DNA from: an uncultured Pelagibacteraceae bacterium
GTDB lineage: Bacteria; Pseudomonadota; Alphaproteobacteria; Pelagibacterales; Pelagibacteraceae
Reading direction: 5' to 3'
Assembly (NCBI GenBank): GCA_902577075.1
Contig: CACGXV010000004.1
Location: 1 to 64,000, forward strand
DNA: 64,000 nucleotides
Below are positions 3,673 to 57,044 of this stretch, in pieces; the first letter of the stretch is position 1; each line of letters begins with the position of its first letter. Below the pieces are notes generated by a model. The model saw only the letters and a list, made by a program, of their open reading frames with translations. It did not search any database and was not told the origin of the DNA. The position numbers and the translations under genes were made by a program.

Positions 3673-4361
3673 TGAATAAAAAAAAAAAGGATAATATTGT
3701 AAAATTTCCAACAAAACTTACTGAAGTAGAAAGAGAAATTGAGGCTATTATATTTGCTGCTGCAGAACCTTTATCAGTAGAAACGATAGAGTCTAAATTA
3801 TCAAAACCAACTGACATTCAACAATCACTAGAAAATCTAAAAGATTTTTACTCTAAAAGAGGTATTAATCTAATTTGTATTTCAAATAAATGGTCTTTTA
3901 GGACAGCAGTCAATTTATCATCTTTAATGTCAGAACAAAAGACTGTTGAAAAAAAATTATCTAGAGCTGCGATAGAAACTCTTGCAATCATTGTTTATCA
4001 TCAACCTGTTACAAGATCTGAAATTGAGGAAATTAGAGGTGTTGCATTTGGAACAAACACTTTAGAAATTTTAATGGAACTAAATTGGGTTAAACATGAA
4101 GGTAGAAAAAATGTTCCAGGTAAGCCAATACAATATGGGACAACAGACGAATTTCTGAGTCATTTTAATCTACAAAAATTATCAGATCTACCAACTGTCA
4201 ATGAATTAGGTTCAGCAGGTTTAATTGATACTTCAAGTGTTGATGCATCAATTTTTGGAACAGGCAAATTTTTCAAAGAAAAACAAGTAGATAAAAAGGA
4301 AAATATATATTCTGATATTGATGAAATGTTAAGCAGTACACTTAAAACAGACGAAAACTAA
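3672..4361 (+). CDS. scpB: Segregation and condensation protein B
   Basis: 'LSRAAIETLAIIVYHQPVTRSEIEEIRGV'. Confidence 0.92.
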   Translation: MNKKKKDNIVKFPTKLTEVEREIEAIIFAAAEPLSVETIESKLSKPTDIQQSLENLKDFYSKRGINLICISNKWSFRTAVNLSSLMSEQKTVEKKLSRAAIETLAIIVYHQPVTRSEIEEIRGVAFGTNTLEILMELNWVKHEGRKNVPGKPIQYGTTDEFLSHFNLQKLSDLPTVNELGSAGLIDTSSVDASIFGTGKFFKEKQVDKKENIYSDIDEMLSSTLKTDEN

Positions 4362-49478: not shown

Positions 49479-49754
49479 CTAGAGCAAAATACCCTCTGAT
49501 TTGAGTAATTTTCTCTTAGTATTTATCCCACCTTTGCCCGAATAGCCGCCCAATGAACCATCCGACCTGATTACTCTGTGACAAGGTATTTTTGGGGCAT
49601 ATGGGTTCTTTCCTATTGCATTTGCCACAGCTCTTACTGATTTTGGTTTATTTATAGCCTTTGCTACATCAGAGTAAGTCCGAATCTGCCCTTTTGGTAT
49701 TTTTTTAAGATATTTCCAAACTTTTAATTGAAATTTAGTGCCTTTAAGGATCAT
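49479..49754 (-). CDS. MGMT-family / O6-alkylguanine-DNA alkyltransferase-like protein
   Basis: 'FQLKVWKYLKKIPKGQIRTYSDVAKAINKPKSVRAVANAIGKNPYAPKIPCHRVIRSDGSLGGYSGG'-type motif with PCHRV. Start likely MILKGTKF; the N-terminal extension in the ORF track overlaps the RNA candidate. Confidence 0.88.
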   Translation of the reverse strand: MILKGTKFQLKVWKYLKKIPKGQIRTYSDVAKAINKPKSVRAVANAIGKNPYAPKIPCHRVIRSDGSLGGYSGKGGINTKRKLLKSEGILL

Positions 49755-49756
49755 AA

Positions 49757-49960
49757 TAAGAAAAACCCTGTTTCCTTGTACCTTTTCAGGCACAAAGAAC
49801 AGTAGTTTTTGGCACGTCGTTTTATGCGCTACCGCCATGCCTTCCACTCTACTATTTTAGCGCTACTCTGTAGAGCTTTCTGCCCTCTGGGCTTGAACCT
49901 CTCGGTTTTTCCCCAGCTGGTCAGTTAAGAGTTGCCTCTTAATTCATTTTAAACAATATC
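49757..49960 (-). ncRNA. Unidentified structured RNA candidate with terminator-like 3' hairpin
   Basis: GC-rich (57% over 49861-49920, counted) in a very AT-rich genome. Minus-strand hairpins: TTAAGAG-GCAA-CTCTTAA; CTGGG-[AACC-GAGA-GGTT]-CCCAG; CTAC-AGA-GTAG; nested AGTAG/GGCATG/GCG; TTGTGCCT-GAAA-AGGTACAA. Loops are GNRA and G-U wobbles form only on the minus strand. Confidence 0.65.
49761..49802 (-). terminator. Rho-independent terminator-like hairpin ending the RNA candidate
   Basis: Minus strand CTGTT-c-T-TTGTGCCT-GAAA-AGGTACAA-gga-AACAG-GG-TTTTT. Confidence 0.55.
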
Positions 49961-50694: not shown

Positions 50695-50742
50695 TAAAAA
50701 TGTTTTACATTAAATGCTTGACATGTAAAATGAGTTATATTA

Positions 50743-50775
50743 TTACTATTGATAACAATTAATTATCAATAGTAA
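50743..50775. repeat. Perfect 13-bp inverted repeat with 7-bp spacer (tyrosine-recombinase core-site-like)
   Basis: TTACTATTGATAA-CAATTAA-TTATCAATAGTAA read directly; ends 4 bp before the recombinase ATG. Confidence 0.75.
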
Positions 50776-50779
50776 AAAT

Positions 50780-51733
50780 ATGAATGAGCTAACAACAGAC
50801 CTAAAATCGCTTCATGAGGCAACTCTAAATAATCTAAAAAACTCAAAAGCAAATAATACTTTAAGAGCATATAAATCAGACTTTAAAGATTTTAGAGCGT
50901 TTTGTGCTAAGCATGGATTAAGTTCTTTACCATCAGAACCCAAAATAGTTTCTTTATATATTACTCATCTATCTAAAAATTCAAAAATTAGCACATTAAG
51001 AAGAAGATTAGTTTCAATTAGCATGGTCCATAAACTAAAAGGCCACTATCTGGATACAAAACATCCAATCATTGTTGAGAACTTAATGGGAATAAGAAGA
51101 GTAAAAGGAAGCATTCAAAATGGTAAAAAACCTATATTAATCAATCATTTAAAATCTATTATTAATGTAATAGATGAAAAAAAATTTGATGATATTAAAA
51201 AATTTAGAGATAAGTCAATAATCTTAGTCGGCTTTGGAGGAGGATTTAGAAGAACTGAGCTAATCACAATTAATCATGAGGATTTAGAATTTGTGCCGGA
51301 AGGACTAAAAATCACAATAAGAAGGTCAAAAACCGATCAATTGGGTGAAGGGATGATTAAGGGACTACCCTACTTCACCAATGAAACCTATTGCCCAATT
51401 GTTAATCTTAAAAAATGGCTAGAAATTTCTAAAATTAAATCTGGACCAATTTTTAGAAGATTTACTAAAGGATCGTTATTAACTGACAAAAGATTAACAG
51501 ATCAATCGGTAGTTTTATTAATGAAAGAATACTTAAATTTAGCAGGTATAGATAATAAAAATTTTGCAGGCCACAGTTTAAGATCAGGTTTTGCAACTGT
51601 TGCTGCTGAATCTGGTGCAGATGAACGAAGTATTATGGCAATGACAGGTCATAAAACAACACAAATGGTAAGAAGATATATAAAAGAAGCAAATATATTT
51701 AAAAATAATGCACTGAACAATATTAAGATTTAA
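50780..51733 (+). CDS. Tyrosine recombinase / phage-type integrase
   Basis: Catalytic residues in 'GGGFRRTEL' (R), 'RRSKTDQ' (K), 'HSLRSGFATVAA' (H-R), 'TGHKT' (H), 'VRRYI' (Y); SAM-like N-terminal domain. Confidence 0.92.
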   Translation: MNELTTDLKSLHEATLNNLKNSKANNTLRAYKSDFKDFRAFCAKHGLSSLPSEPKIVSLYITHLSKNSKISTLRRRLVSISMVHKLKGHYLDTKHPIIVENLMGIRRVKGSIQNGKKPILINHLKSIINVIDEKKFDDIKKFRDKSIILVGFGGGFRRTELITINHEDLEFVPEGLKITIRRSKTDQLGEGMIKGLPYFTNETYCPIVNLKKWLEISKIKSGPIFRRFTKGSLLTDKRLTDQSVVLLMKEYLNLAGIDNKNFAGHSLRSGFATVAAESGADERSIMAMTGHKTTQMVRRYIKEANIFKNNALNNIKI

Positions 51734-52656
51734 ATCCTTTTCCAATGGTTTGGATAAAAATTAGGATTGCCTGACGGGTTTAGTGTCGATGGAAATACAC
51801 AGATTTTATTTGGATTAGTGTTTAAATAAGCTCCCCACCAATGGAAAGTTGAACCACCAACAATAAAATGCTTCGCGTAAGAAAATAAATTAAAATCATT
51901 AATTACATCATTTCCTTTTACATATACAAAGTTTTTACCTTTAAAGTGTTTTGTAATACTGTCTATATCATTTGACCAAATAAAAAAAGTTGGGTTATTG
52001 ATTTTTTTTTCAAAATATATGATTGATTTTTTAATATAATCTAGAAGATCATTAGTAAAATTTTCAGACTTGACCAGTCTTTCATTTTTAATTATTTCAT
52101 GGGGTTGGTCAGAATATTTGTTTTTTCTAACATGTATAGATACAGAATTTGTATTTTTTAATTGATAAATAGTTTCGTTATCATAATTAATAAATCTCTT
52201 TAAGGGCTTATACATTTTAATTAAATCGTCTTTAAACGAATGAAAATATTTTTCATTTTCAAAGTTTCCTTGAACATAAATTAAATTAGATAGATTGCTA
52301 TTATCTGGAATAATAATAGGTAATGCGGTTTTATTATTGTTTATTTTAATATTTTTTTCAATTATAAATTTTTTTTTGTTTTTAAATTTTTCAAAAAATA
52401 ATTCATATTTTTTTTTAATTCTTTTAAAGGAATTTTCATATGTGCTATTACTATCAGCTAAATTTTGACTAATATTGAATTTATCAAGCATATATTTTTG
52501 GTGACTTCTAAGTTTGTTTTTTTTTTTAGAAAATCCACTTACATTATCTATTTGAAGTTCACAATCTAGTCTTTTGCTCAATGCATATGAATGTGCATAC
52601 ATAAATAATTGATTTCCTAATCCTTCTGCAATTTCAACAACTATTTTTTTGGGCAT
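51730..52656 (-). CDS. Glycosyltransferase family 11 (alpha-1,2-fucosyltransferase-like)
   Basis: 'EGLGNQLFMYAHSYALSKRL', 'SIHVRKNKYSD', 'FIVGGSTFHWWGAYLN'. Confidence 0.85.
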   Translation of the reverse strand: MPKKIVVEIAEGLGNQLFMYAHSYALSKRLDCELQIDNVSGFSKKKNKLRSHQKYMLDKFNISQNLADSNSTYENSFKRIKKKYELFFEKFKNKKKFIIEKNIKINNNKTALPIIIPDNSNLSNLIYVQGNFENEKYFHSFKDDLIKMYKPLKRFINYDNETIYQLKNTNSVSIHVRKNKYSDQPHEIIKNERLVKSENFTNDLLDYIKKSIIYFEKKINNPTFFIWSNDIDSITKHFKGKNFVYVKGNDVINDFNLFSYAKHFIVGGSTFHWWGAYLNTNPNKICVFPSTLNPSGNPNFYPNHWKRI

Positions 52657-53660
52657 TATATTATTTTTGATAATTTATTAATTGATTTGTTATAATCTTT
52701 TTTAATAATAGAAAATGAAAAATGAGACAAAGGTTTCCACTCTTTTATAGCAATAATTTGATTAAAAATGTCATTTTTATTGTTAAATTTAAAATGCATT
52801 AAAGCTAAAGTTTTTTTTTTTAAAAAGGTACCAATATGAGTGATACCACTTTCAGGTGCTATTACATCATCACACATAGATATTGTATGAACTAGTTTGT
52901 CACCTTCAAGATTATTTAAAAATAAAATATTATAATTGTTAATTTTGTTATATTTCCTCTCCTTAAAATCATAACAGTTGAAGTTTTGAAGAAAAAAATT
53001 ATTTTTTTCTAGGTTATCAAGTTCTGATGAAAAAACTATAAATTTCCTTTTTTTTGCTAAAAATTCAATAAAATTTTTGATCTTTTTATTATCCCATAAT
53101 AATTTTTCAGAGAATAAATTATGCTTATAATGAAAATATGTTGCACTTTTTGGAAATTCAAAAAAATCAAATTTATCAAATTTTAAATTTTTATAATTAA
53201 TAACTTGTTTTTTATAGTTAATTAGATTCTCAAGTACCTTATATACGGATAAAATTTTTGAATTATCCCTTCTGTATAATGTTTCTTTACTAAATAAATA
53301 TTTCTTAAAAAACTCTGTGGGTCTATTTCTATCTGAGTCGATACATACAGCGTGAAATTTTATACTTCTAAATATAAAAGGCAAAATGTAATAAAAACTT
53401 TTAGGCGCTAGAATATAAATGTCGCTGATATTATTGAAAATTAAATAATTTAAAATTTTCAATTTTTCTAAAATATTTAAATTATAGTTAAAAATTTTTA
53501 TTTTTAATTCTTTAAAGATAAAATTAAATTTAAAATTGATCTTAGACAAAAATACAATTATATCTCTATCTCTGTGTTTATTAATTATTAAATTAATTGA
53601 ATTTACAGATGTAAAATAATCTCCTACTCTATCGTTTTTCAAAATTAATACTTTTCTCAC
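52656..53660 (-). CDS. Glycosyltransferase family 9 (heptosyltransferase-like)
   Basis: 'MRKVLILKNDRVGDYFTSVNSINLI', 'DDVIAPESGITHIGTFLKKKTLALM'. Confidence 0.7.
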   Translation of the reverse strand: MRKVLILKNDRVGDYFTSVNSINLIINKHRDRDIIVFLSKINFKFNFIFKELKIKIFNYNLNILEKLKILNYLIFNNISDIYILAPKSFYYILPFIFRSIKFHAVCIDSDRNRPTEFFKKYLFSKETLYRRDNSKILSVYKVLENLINYKKQVINYKNLKFDKFDFFEFPKSATYFHYKHNLFSEKLLWDNKKIKNFIEFLAKKRKFIVFSSELDNLEKNNFFLQNFNCYDFKERKYNKINNYNILFLNNLEGDKLVHTISMCDDVIAPESGITHIGTFLKKKTLALMHFKFNNKNDIFNQIIAIKEWKPLSHFSFSIIKKDYNKSINKLSKII

Positions 53661-53667
53661 TTTTATT

Positions 53668-55782
53668 TTATGATTCCCAATAAAAATTTGTTTTCAAACC
53701 CATTGATTTTAAAATTATATATTTTGCTACTAGTTCTGAATTGAAATATTTATGATATTTAGTATTTCCTTTTTTTGCAATTTTTTTTCTTAATTTGTCA
53801 TCTTTTTTAAATTTGTGAATTTTTTCTGTTAGATCTTCTAAATTTTTATAGAAAATCATTTCGTCATTATTAAAAAAATCACCATAACAGGTTTTTTGGT
53901 CTATAAATGTTAATAAACCATTACCCATAAGCTGTGCAATTCTATCACTACTATAGTATTTAATCGGCTTACCTCTACTCAAATTAAGTCCCATTTTTGA
54001 GTTAGATAGTTCCTTTAAAAAACTTTGACCCCATATTGGCTGTTTTCCAAACATGCCATATGTATCAAATTTAATATTCTTACATTTTTTGCGAAGATTT
54101 CTTATAAAAGTTTCTCTTTCATCTATTTTACCAGATCTTAAAACCCCTCTGTGAACTCCGTGACTTATAGCATAAAAAATATCATTTTTAGGTTCATGAT
54201 TAAAATTTTTTAAATTATCTAATGATTTATCGCATGGATTAGGAATAAAAAACGAATTGTTAATTTTGAAATCTAACGATTCTGGATCGGTAGTTGTAAA
54301 AGTAGCATCCATGGATTTGATTTTATCAAGAATTCTTATTTTATTTTTTTGGTAATCAGGACCTTTTCTAGAGAGTGGGTCTAAAAACCATTGTGCAATA
54401 GTAAGATGCTTATATTTTGATTTTGCTTCTAACAGGGTTTCGTTACTTATTTTATCCGCGTGTCCTAATATCAGCAAATCTGGTTTAAAGTTATGAATTG
54501 TTTCAGAGATTAGATTATTTAAGTATTTACTACCAGTAGGATCTTTGAAAGATTTAGAATAATTTATTATATCTCTATCTGACAAACTAATGACATTATG
54601 ACCAAGTCTTATAAGTCCATTATTTAATCGTATACCAGTATTATATTGCAATCTTCCAAAATATCTTTGATTAAAATTCGTAACATGAATTATTTTTAAT
54701 TTTGAATTATTACTTATATTGAACTTTTTAATCTGTAAATTTTCAAGAATATTTGTTCTTACTTTGTCAATTATATTAGAGACAAATTCATGAGTGAGGA
54801 AAAAAGATTTATAGTTTAATATTTGAAATTTTCTTCTAAGTTTTGAATTTTTTATTAATTTTTTAATTTGATTATAAAGAATATTTGCATCCAGCTTGTT
54901 AATAATTATTGGATGTCTTGTAGTTTCTGATAAGCCCCCTTTGTTTGTTATAATTGTTGCGCAGGCTAGACTGCTAGCTTCCAAACTTGATCTACCAAAG
55001 GGCTCTTCCCATCTAGAACAGGCAACAAAAATACTCGTTTTTTTTAATAAATTTAAAACAAATGAATTTTCTTTAAAATTATAAATTTTTAAATTTTTGT
55101 GTAAAAAAAAGAGTTTTTCTCTAGGCTCGTCACCTACCACTACAGATTTCCAATTGGGAAACTCATTAAGAATTTTAATGACAGCTTGACCAAAAATATC
55201 ATAACCTTTTGCAGAATTTAACTTACCAACAAATGAAATTATATTTTCCTTTTTTTTAATATTTATTTTGATTTTTTTTGTTGATTGAAAACATACACCA
55301 AACTTTGATTTGTAATTTTCAGAGTTTATATCTTTGAAAAATTGATTTTGTGTCCAGTTACTATTAAAAAAAATAAATTCACATTCATCCAATAATTTTA
55401 TTCTATCACTCTTTGACCTAGATCCAGAAATAGTCAGGGGGTTGTTATGAAAATAAAGGATAATTTTTGATTTAAGATTATTTTTTATGATATTGACATA
55501 TGAAGGTCTATTATGAATCTCAACAATATCAGGATTATACTTGCTATTAAGTTCAACAAATTTTTCTAAATATTTTTTATTGTTACTAAACAAAATACTT
55601 GAATTGACTTTAATATTTTTAAAATTTCCTGATAAAAATTTTTTTTTATTGGTATTACCAAAAACAACAGTTGATTTTTTAAATTTTGAATATTTTAGTA
55701 AATTAGAAACATGTATTGATACCGCACCTGCATATTTAGGAGAATATTCTTCTTTATAAGGGAGGAGAATTGCAATATTCAT
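53668..55782 (-). CDS. Two-domain glycosyltransferase: GT4-like N-terminus fused to CgeB/YkvP-like C-terminal glycosyltransferase
   Basis: N-half 'GKLNSAKGYDIFGQAVIKIL', 'RWEEPFGRSSLEASSLACATIITNKGGLSE'; C-half 'SKMGLNLSRGKPIKYYSSDRIAQLMGNGLLTFIDQ'. Confidence 0.8.
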   Translation of the reverse strand: MNIAILLPYKEEYSPKYAGAVSIHVSNLLKYSKFKKSTVVFGNTNKKKFLSGNFKNIKVNSSILFSNNKKYLEKFVELNSKYNPDIVEIHNRPSYVNIIKNNLKSKIILYFHNNPLTISGSRSKSDRIKLLDECEFIFFNSNWTQNQFFKDINSENYKSKFGVCFQSTKKIKINIKKKENIISFVGKLNSAKGYDIFGQAVIKILNEFPNWKSVVVGDEPREKLFFLHKNLKIYNFKENSFVLNLLKKTSIFVACSRWEEPFGRSSLEASSLACATIITNKGGLSETTRHPIIINKLDANILYNQIKKLIKNSKLRRKFQILNYKSFFLTHEFVSNIIDKVRTNILENLQIKKFNISNNSKLKIIHVTNFNQRYFGRLQYNTGIRLNNGLIRLGHNVISLSDRDIINYSKSFKDPTGSKYLNNLISETIHNFKPDLLILGHADKISNETLLEAKSKYKHLTIAQWFLDPLSRKGPDYQKNKIRILDKIKSMDATFTTTDPESLDFKINNSFFIPNPCDKSLDNLKNFNHEPKNDIFYAISHGVHRGVLRSGKIDERETFIRNLRKKCKNIKFDTYGMFGKQPIWGQSFLKELSNSKMGLNLSRGKPIKYYSSDRIAQLMGNGLLTFIDQKTCYGDFFNNDEMIFYKNLEDLTEKIHKFKKDDKLRKKIAKKGNTKYHKYFNSELVAKYIILKSMGLKTNFYWES

Positions 55783-56039
55783 TTATTTGTTAAATATCTT
55801 TCTTTTAAATTTTTTCTTAGTTTATAATTTTTTTTTAATTTATACTCTTCTTTCATAGCTTTACTTTTCCTGATATATTTTTTTTTATATATCAAAAACC
55901 ATTTTCTTCCCTTCGTAAATTTGGCTCCTTTCGAACTATTGTGAAGCTCAAGTCTTTTTTTTATATTTTTTGTATAGCCTACATAAGATATACAGCTATT
56001 TAGCTTTTTTGATAATAACAAATATACATAATAGCTCAT
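55779..56039 (-). CDS. GIY-YIG nuclease family protein
   Basis: 'YYVYLLLSKKLNSCISYVGYTKNIKKRLELHNSSKGAKFTKGRKWFLIY'. Confidence 0.88.
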   Translation of the reverse strand: MSYYVYLLLSKKLNSCISYVGYTKNIKKRLELHNSSKGAKFTKGRKWFLIYKKKYIRKSKAMKEEYKLKKNYKLRKNLKERYLTNK

Positions 56040-56081
56040 TATGCTTTATATTTATTAAAATTAATAAAAAAAACAATTTCT

Positions 56082-57044
56082 ATGTTTATACGACATTTAA
56101 AGAAACAAAGTAGATTCAAAAGATTTCTTTTAAAAATTCTTAATATTTATGCATTTGAAAAGGAAACTTTTAAATTGATTAACCCACTCTCTAAAAATAT
56201 TTCTTCAAACTACTATAAGTTAAATGATAAGACCTTTATTCTTTCAAGTGGATATTTAAATTTAAAAAGAAAAATTAAAAAAATAGATATCTACTTTAGA
56301 TACGCGCCAAATAACCAACTTTGGAACTCATCTAAAAGATGGAAAAGAATAATCCAAAATATCAATAAAGAAGATTTAATTTTGACTACATTAAATAGTT
56401 TAAAGAATAGTATATTATTTTTTCTAGAAAATAATAAAATTGATATAACTATTAATTTAATTTCAGACGCATCTAATCCAAAATTTGACTTATTGGTAAA
56501 AAAACTACTCAATAATAGAAATTTTAATATTAATTTTTTTGAAACTAAAAAATCAGGAAATAGAGGTTCCTTCTTAGAATGTTGTGATCAAGCTAAAAAT
56601 GCAGAGGATATAATTTTTTTTATTGAAGATGATTATTTGTTTGAAAAAAAATGTATTGACGAAATGGTCTTTGCGTATTCCAGAATATCTACAATGTTAG
56701 ATAACGATATATTTTTATGTCCAAGTGATTATCCTTTTTATTATGATGCTAATTATCATACATCCCTATTTATAGGTAAAAATTATAGATGGAGAACAGT
56801 TTTTGAAACATTATTAACTTTTATGTTTTCAAAAAAAATTTTAGATAAATATGAGAACAATATTAGATTAATAGGGGAACAAGAAAATCATCCTTTTGAA
56901 AAACCTTTACATTCTGTCTACTTAGAACAACCATGTTTGTCACCAGTAGGAACACTATCGCATCATATCTCAAAAAGTGTCCCATCCGTAAATGAGGATT
57001 GGTTAAAAACTTGGAATGTTAATTTTATAAAATCTGAAAATTAA
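56082..57044 (+). CDS. Putative GT-A fold glycosyltransferase
   Basis: 'GNRGSFLECCDQAKNAEDIIFFIEDDYLFEKKCIDEMV' resembles an acidic nucleotide-sugar/metal motif; located in the glycan cluster. Confidence 0.55.
   Translation: MFIRHLKKQSRFKRFLLKILNIYAFEKETFKLINPLSKNISSNYYKLNDKTFILSSGYLNLKRKIKKIDIYFRYAPNNQLWNSSKRWKRIIQNINKEDLILTTLNSLKNSILFFLENNKIDITINLISDASNPKFDLLVKKLLNNRNFNINFFETKKSGNRGSFLECCDQAKNAEDIIFFIEDDYLFEKKCIDEMVFAYSRISTMLDNDIFLCPSDYPFYYDANYHTSLFIGKNYRWRTVFETLLTFMFSKKILDKYENNIRLIGEQENHPFEKPLHSVYLEQPCLSPVGTLSHHISKSVPSVNEDWLKTWNVNFIKSEN

Follow-up and report, generated by a model that had tools for sequence, protein, structure and literature searches.

The window, that is, the whole stretch of 64,000 nucleotides analysed, comes from a 1.36 Mb genome of the Pelagibacteraceae (SAR11), here labelled G000. 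SAR11 are the most abundant bacteria of the ocean. A gene for a single Xer-like tyrosine recombinase (xer) is preceded in the window by an inverted repeat that overlaps its promoter (Table 1). The first-pass annotation described a perfect 13-7-13 palindrome ending 4 bp ahead of the recombinase start, and both details hold: the repeat, TTACTATTGATAA-CAATTAA-TTATCAATAGTAA, is exact at 50743-50775 and the ATG is at 50780. It is the longest perfect inverted repeat in the window (arms of at least 10, loop of at most 20). Approximately 0.13 repeats with arms of 13 or more are expected per window (30 Markov simulations), and a single repeat of such length is on its own unremarkable. A chance origin is nevertheless excluded, because the palindrome is kept upstream of every intact orthologue, as described below.

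Table 1. Features of the xer locus in the window
Feature	Position	Strand	Basis or remark
Single Xer-like tyrosine recombinase, 317 aa	50780-51733	+	Pfam PF00589 and PF02899
Putative dif site, 35 bp as family-aligned	50742-50776	+	Perfect palindrome is 50743-50775
Left arm of putative dif site	50742-50755	+	
7-bp spacer CAATTAA	50756-50762	+	
Right arm of putative dif site	50763-50776	+	
-35 box TTGACA of xer promoter	50718-50723	+	TTGAC kept in family
Candidate -10 element TATTAC	50741-50746	+	17-bp spacing, overlaps left arm; sequence and family profile
Conserved left-flank gene, Ogt/MGMT-like	49479-49847	-	Sequence reading; upstream of xer in 79/80 loci checked
Right flank, variable glycosyltransferase-like genes	51730-57044		Sequence reading; from end of xer, i.e. 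at replication terminus

The TTGACA-like -35 box that had been placed near 50716 is present, but lies two nucleotides further downstream. In 156/179 orthologues TTGAC starts 24 bp ahead of the 35-bp site. The -10 element is weak in the window and of the TATATT type in most relatives. With the left arm lying across the -10 region, bound recombinase would probably repress its own gene; autoregulation of this kind, with the bound enzyme blocking RNA polymerase, is likely from the arrangement of the elements, and the operator function also suggested by the first-pass annotation is compatible with the overlap of site and promoter. The left flank (EamA, Ogt/MGMT) is conserved and the right flank is variable. 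Amid the glycosyltransferase genes, an 86-aa ORF (55779-56039) resembles GIY-YIG endonucleases, and similar ORFs lie downstream of xer in 29/80 related loci.

The motif GATAA-N7-TTATC occurs directly upstream of xer in 180 of 181 distinct loci, and in the sole exception the gene is cut by a contig end. Failure of the palindrome to be conserved beside orthologous recombinases had been named in advance as evidence against a recombination site; it is present in all 180 intact orthologues. In the family profile of sites, information content peaks over the inner arms and spacer. The spacer is 7 bp long in all 180 host sites, with the sequence TTAATTG in 115 and TTAATGG in 56. The window spacer is the reverse complement of TTAATTG, an orientation found only here (1/180), and the nearest relative listed (L039, protein 96% identical) has the usual one. 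Since the arms are identical, only the spacer is inverted. Either template switching or an artefact of amplification is enough to produce this flip, which can be real variation or an artefact. A second flipped spacer suggested by a pattern search in G221 was rejected as a chance ATGA on the opposite strand.

The site core was found in 289 of 397 family genomes scanned, exactly once in each of the 289. A search for further copies of the arm, as proposed by the first-pass annotation, gave no other exact copy in the genome of the window, where second copies of arm or full site did not exceed chance, and no second core in any of the related genomes that have it. In the complete genome G003 (1,199,990 bp) the site lies at 674,662-674,696, 585 bp from the cumulative GC-skew maximum at 675,249, and the 35-bp consensus is matched elsewhere at no more than 26 positions. 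In G035, G005, G040 and G078, the skew maximum of a 60-kb stretch lies 1.0-2.3 kb from the site, so that the two are within 0.6-2.3 kb of each other in 5/5 closed genomes tested. The site lies opposite dnaA in 11/11 closed genomes, at 0.418-0.487 of the circle. This position is not merely shared synteny, because three closed genomes (G005, G009 and G022) are without the conserved left-flank genes. Within the window, a change of sign in the skew occurs near the site, but the cumulative skew of the window peaks at 39.7 kb, which counts against the dif reading. A search for KOPS among strand-skewed 6-8-mers in one genome revealed a general purine-rich skew and no clear KOPS signal.

The hexad R157 K184 H265 R268 H291 Y300 (RKHRHY) is invariant across the recombinase orthologues compared. 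An orthologue, usually one, is present in 230/297 family genomes; among good-quality drafts the gene is found in 111/127 (120/149 with other families included), and about a tenth are without it. Its absence from draft genomes is most simply explained by contig breaks. G000 also encodes, at 12778-13353 of contig C9, a further, weakly matching tyrosine recombinase (426-aa frame, 41 bits), which is possibly a prophage or island integrase. Scores with the XerC and XerD models were 58 and 69 bits against cut-offs of 335 and 330, that with the NCBIfam XerS model was 39.5 bits against 267, and the protein is also far under the XerA cut-off. With such scores, and with this enzyme as the only PF00589 protein in 8/11 closed genomes, membership of a XerC/XerD pair or identity with XerS was ruled out by sequence. 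A profile search with the recombinase returned XerD and Cre, the match to Cre being full-length. Structure prediction (mean pLDDT 77, pTM 0.56, poor in the C-terminal part) gives a fold nearest to Cre, then XerA, XerH and XerD, with 16-18% identity to Cre in the fold alignment. FtsK-gamma (PF09397) is present in 12/12 genomes. A sister family of the same order instead has two proteins resembling XerD and XerC, some of whose scores are below the equivalog cut-offs and of which the XerC-like one was taken from a late start.

Two classes of site can be distinguished, with arms ACTANNGATAA (class A) and TTCCGATAA (class B). Both arms of any site are of the same class, with one exception, a site in which a class-B arm carries a point change. 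The classes correspond to the two sides of one branch (97/96) in a maximum-likelihood tree of 91 recombinases; this branch recurs in 98% of bootstrap trees and is matched in 0/500 shuffles. The genera g1, g2, g4, g5 and g9 each contain both classes. In G200 and G242 the left flank, including the promoter, is mostly 77-95% identical to that of the window, and identity drops to 64-69% in the bin starting at the site, where the class-B module begins. Site and enzyme are therefore transferred as a unit whose junction falls at or close to the site, and these profiles indicate that site-recombinase modules are swapped between SAR11 lineages.

Members of the recombinase family are frequent on plasmids (1862 records, best identity 45%). 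The pattern TTCCGATAA-N7-TTATCGGAA lies 2-38 bp upstream of related recombinases in six phage or plasmid contigs. These IMG/VR contigs (L408, L448, L449, L423, L399 and L413) include GC-rich ones of up to 117 kb. A plasmid recombinase of Protochlamydia has a 16-7-16 palindrome at its start, and similar palindromes are found at recombinase starts in Methylomonas, Aureimonas and Chromobacterium; none was found at the start of the nearest plasmid relatives. There is, on these matches, a wider group of recombinase-plus-palindrome modules beyond SAR11. The SAR11 system would most likely derive from a mobile, Cre-like resolution module that took the place of XerC/XerD.

Sites of both classes are also carried by pelagiphages. 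IMG/VR was scanned with a 17-bp core (29 contigs) and then for full-arm class A and B sites. Contigs with class arms on both sides of the core match pelagiphages and those with unrelated arms do not, which provides a built-in control; core matches with the arms of neither class, being without pelagiphage homology, were counted as chance. The full site is present in at least 180 contigs, at least 121 of which have pelagiphage proteins, and in at least 103 of these 121 it lies within 1.5 kb of terL; no recombinase was detected along with these phage sites. The class-B pattern also matches GC-rich contigs without pelagiphage homology, several of which carry a related recombinase of their own. Cultured phages carry such sites too. 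In HTVC100P the site beside terL scores 40 bits against a shuffled maximum of 2.7 (BLAST E 2e-4 in the phage collection), and in Greip, only part of whose genome was read for recombinase genes, 33.6 bits against -0.6. HTVC035P has a class A (28.5 bits) and a class B (23.7 bits) site beside terL, and HTVC106P a class-B site there (27.3 bits against a shuffled maximum of 8.2). The annotations of HTVC100P, HTVC035P and HTVC106P include no integrase, and an Xer profile detected none. No site above background was found in the whole genome of HTVC010P or in the terL region of HTVC028P. Phages of further marine bacteria may have dif-like sites as well: Venkman (MT375522.1), a phage of Methylophilales, has a weak class-A-like match at 4226-4247, and its terminase shares 45% identity with the HTVC106P terminase.

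An A site lies next to a B site in several phages, and phage spacers are mostly unlike those of the host. The differing spacers argue against simple integration for many of these phages; the sites may serve to resolve multimers. No genome has two host-type sites, in a scan that would reveal integrated copies with host-type spacers only. We tentatively propose, at a little short of an even chance, that abundant, integrase-less 'lytic' pelagiphages (HTVC010P-like and HTVC106P types) use the host Xer at arrays of dif mimics, often A plus B, so that one phage could recombine with either host class, integrating at dif or resolving its own multimers.

Taken together, these results make it highly probable that SAR11 has its chromosomal dif site in the palindrome and its sole Xer in the enzyme encoded 4 bp downstream. 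Several features, all of them of sequence, support the reading as a core recombination site: the site is conserved, occurs once per genome and lies at the terminus, its arms coevolve with the recombinase, phages with no detectable recombinase carry copies, and the catalytic residues are in place. The comparison with loxP and dif made by the first-pass annotation was apt, and a single-recombinase dif/Xer module is the more specific answer. The locus has the testable defining features of such a system, namely the catalytic residues, a two-arm site of 28-35 bp, one site per chromosome, location at the terminus and FtsK-gamma; dimer resolution itself is predicted. A homodimer of the recombinase would bind the two inverted arms, and two sites on a dimeric chromosome would synapse at the septum. 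Y300 would then exchange strands at the edges of the 7-bp spacer and so resolve the dimer, probably with activation by FtsK, whose gamma domain is present. The same protein, where left arm and -10 element overlap, would probably also hold xer repressed.

It is unlikely that the palindrome is only an operator, for the recombinase or for another dimeric regulator of xer, with the recombination target elsewhere. Such an operator would account for the overlap with a conserved promoter and for the invariable location upstream of xer, but it leaves unpredicted the terminus position, the conserved spacer and the presence of the same sites beside terL in recombinase-less phages. Nor does it predict that both arms switch with the enzyme class, a behaviour unlike that of the operator of an unrelated regulator, and no other copy that could be the alternative target was found in the genomes searched. 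We give still less weight to a reading in which the enzyme serves a mobile element or hypervariable island as integrase, with the palindrome as its attachment site. Its relatives are mostly on plasmids, variable glycosyltransferase genes begin at the end of xer and modules are exchanged between lineages, all of which would fit an integrase; the gene is, however, near-universal and single-copy, its position at the terminus is fixed, and one site per genome means that no element is bounded by two. The inverted window spacer, set against all others, is the one observation in favour of the site as an invertible or phase-variable promoter switch of the recombinase gene. This we regard as scarcely credible, as no genome searched has a second inverted site and a flip confined to the spacer of a perfect palindrome can arise by the template switching or artefact mentioned above.

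A chromosomal dif site bears on earlier statements about this group. According to Carnoy & Roten (2009), P. ubique is without a dif/Xer system, and SAR11 is cited as an example of genome streamlining discarding it (PMC2731167). No report contradicting this absence was found in the later open-access literature (subscription papers lay outside the search), and nothing on point was found there concerning SAR11 dif, SAR11 chromosome dimers or pelagiphage Xer. If the site is dif, the streamlining example falls, and a Cre-like module of one non-orthologous enzyme has preserved the function. The existence in nature of two specificity classes, exchanged as cassettes, would offer a ready experiment on recombinase-site coevolution. 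Some phages have been reported to be lytic for lack of an integrase (PMC6811365), and these belong to groups with site-carrying members. The site in these groups makes hidden lysogeny, or dependence on the host Xer, testable in the commonest phages of the ocean.

The phages HTVC100P, HTVC035P and HTVC106P resemble IMEX such as CTXphi in being integrase-less elements with dif-like sites. In contrast to these, pelagiphages are tailed dsDNA phages, often with adjacent class A and B sites, and no lysogen was found in the scan for host-type sites. With the XerC/XerD-dif system of most proteobacteria the SAR11 locus shares the inner ends ATAA...TTAT, the terminus position and FtsK-gamma, but it has one recombinase in place of two, and a 7-bp spacer. 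Most dif sites have spacers of 6-8 bp, and that of XerCD dif is 6 bp. Cre/loxP of phage P1 likewise combines a single enzyme with a palindromic site of near-symmetric 13-bp arms, and Cre is the nearest solved fold; the loxP spacer is 8 bp rather than 7, and, unlike Cre/loxP, the SAR11 module is chromosomal, at the terminus, with the site in the promoter of its own enzyme. XerL/dif of the Legionellales is also a single-recombinase system in a group reported to lack dif/Xer, and there a dif mimic lies on a mobile element (PMC9765430), whereas the SAR11 mimics are on tailed dsDNA phages. XerL belongs to another lineage and, as far as is known, to another protein family. XerS/difSL of streptococci and lactococci likewise has one recombinase, a site directly adjoining its gene and a terminus position (PMC5357621); in difSL the arms are imperfect and the central region is 11 bp long, whereas the SAR11 site has a 7-bp spacer and near-perfect arms and lies in a promoter. 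In its predicted working, the SAR11 module is like the single-recombinase systems XerS/difSL, XerH/difH and XerL/dif (PMC5357621, PMC9765430).
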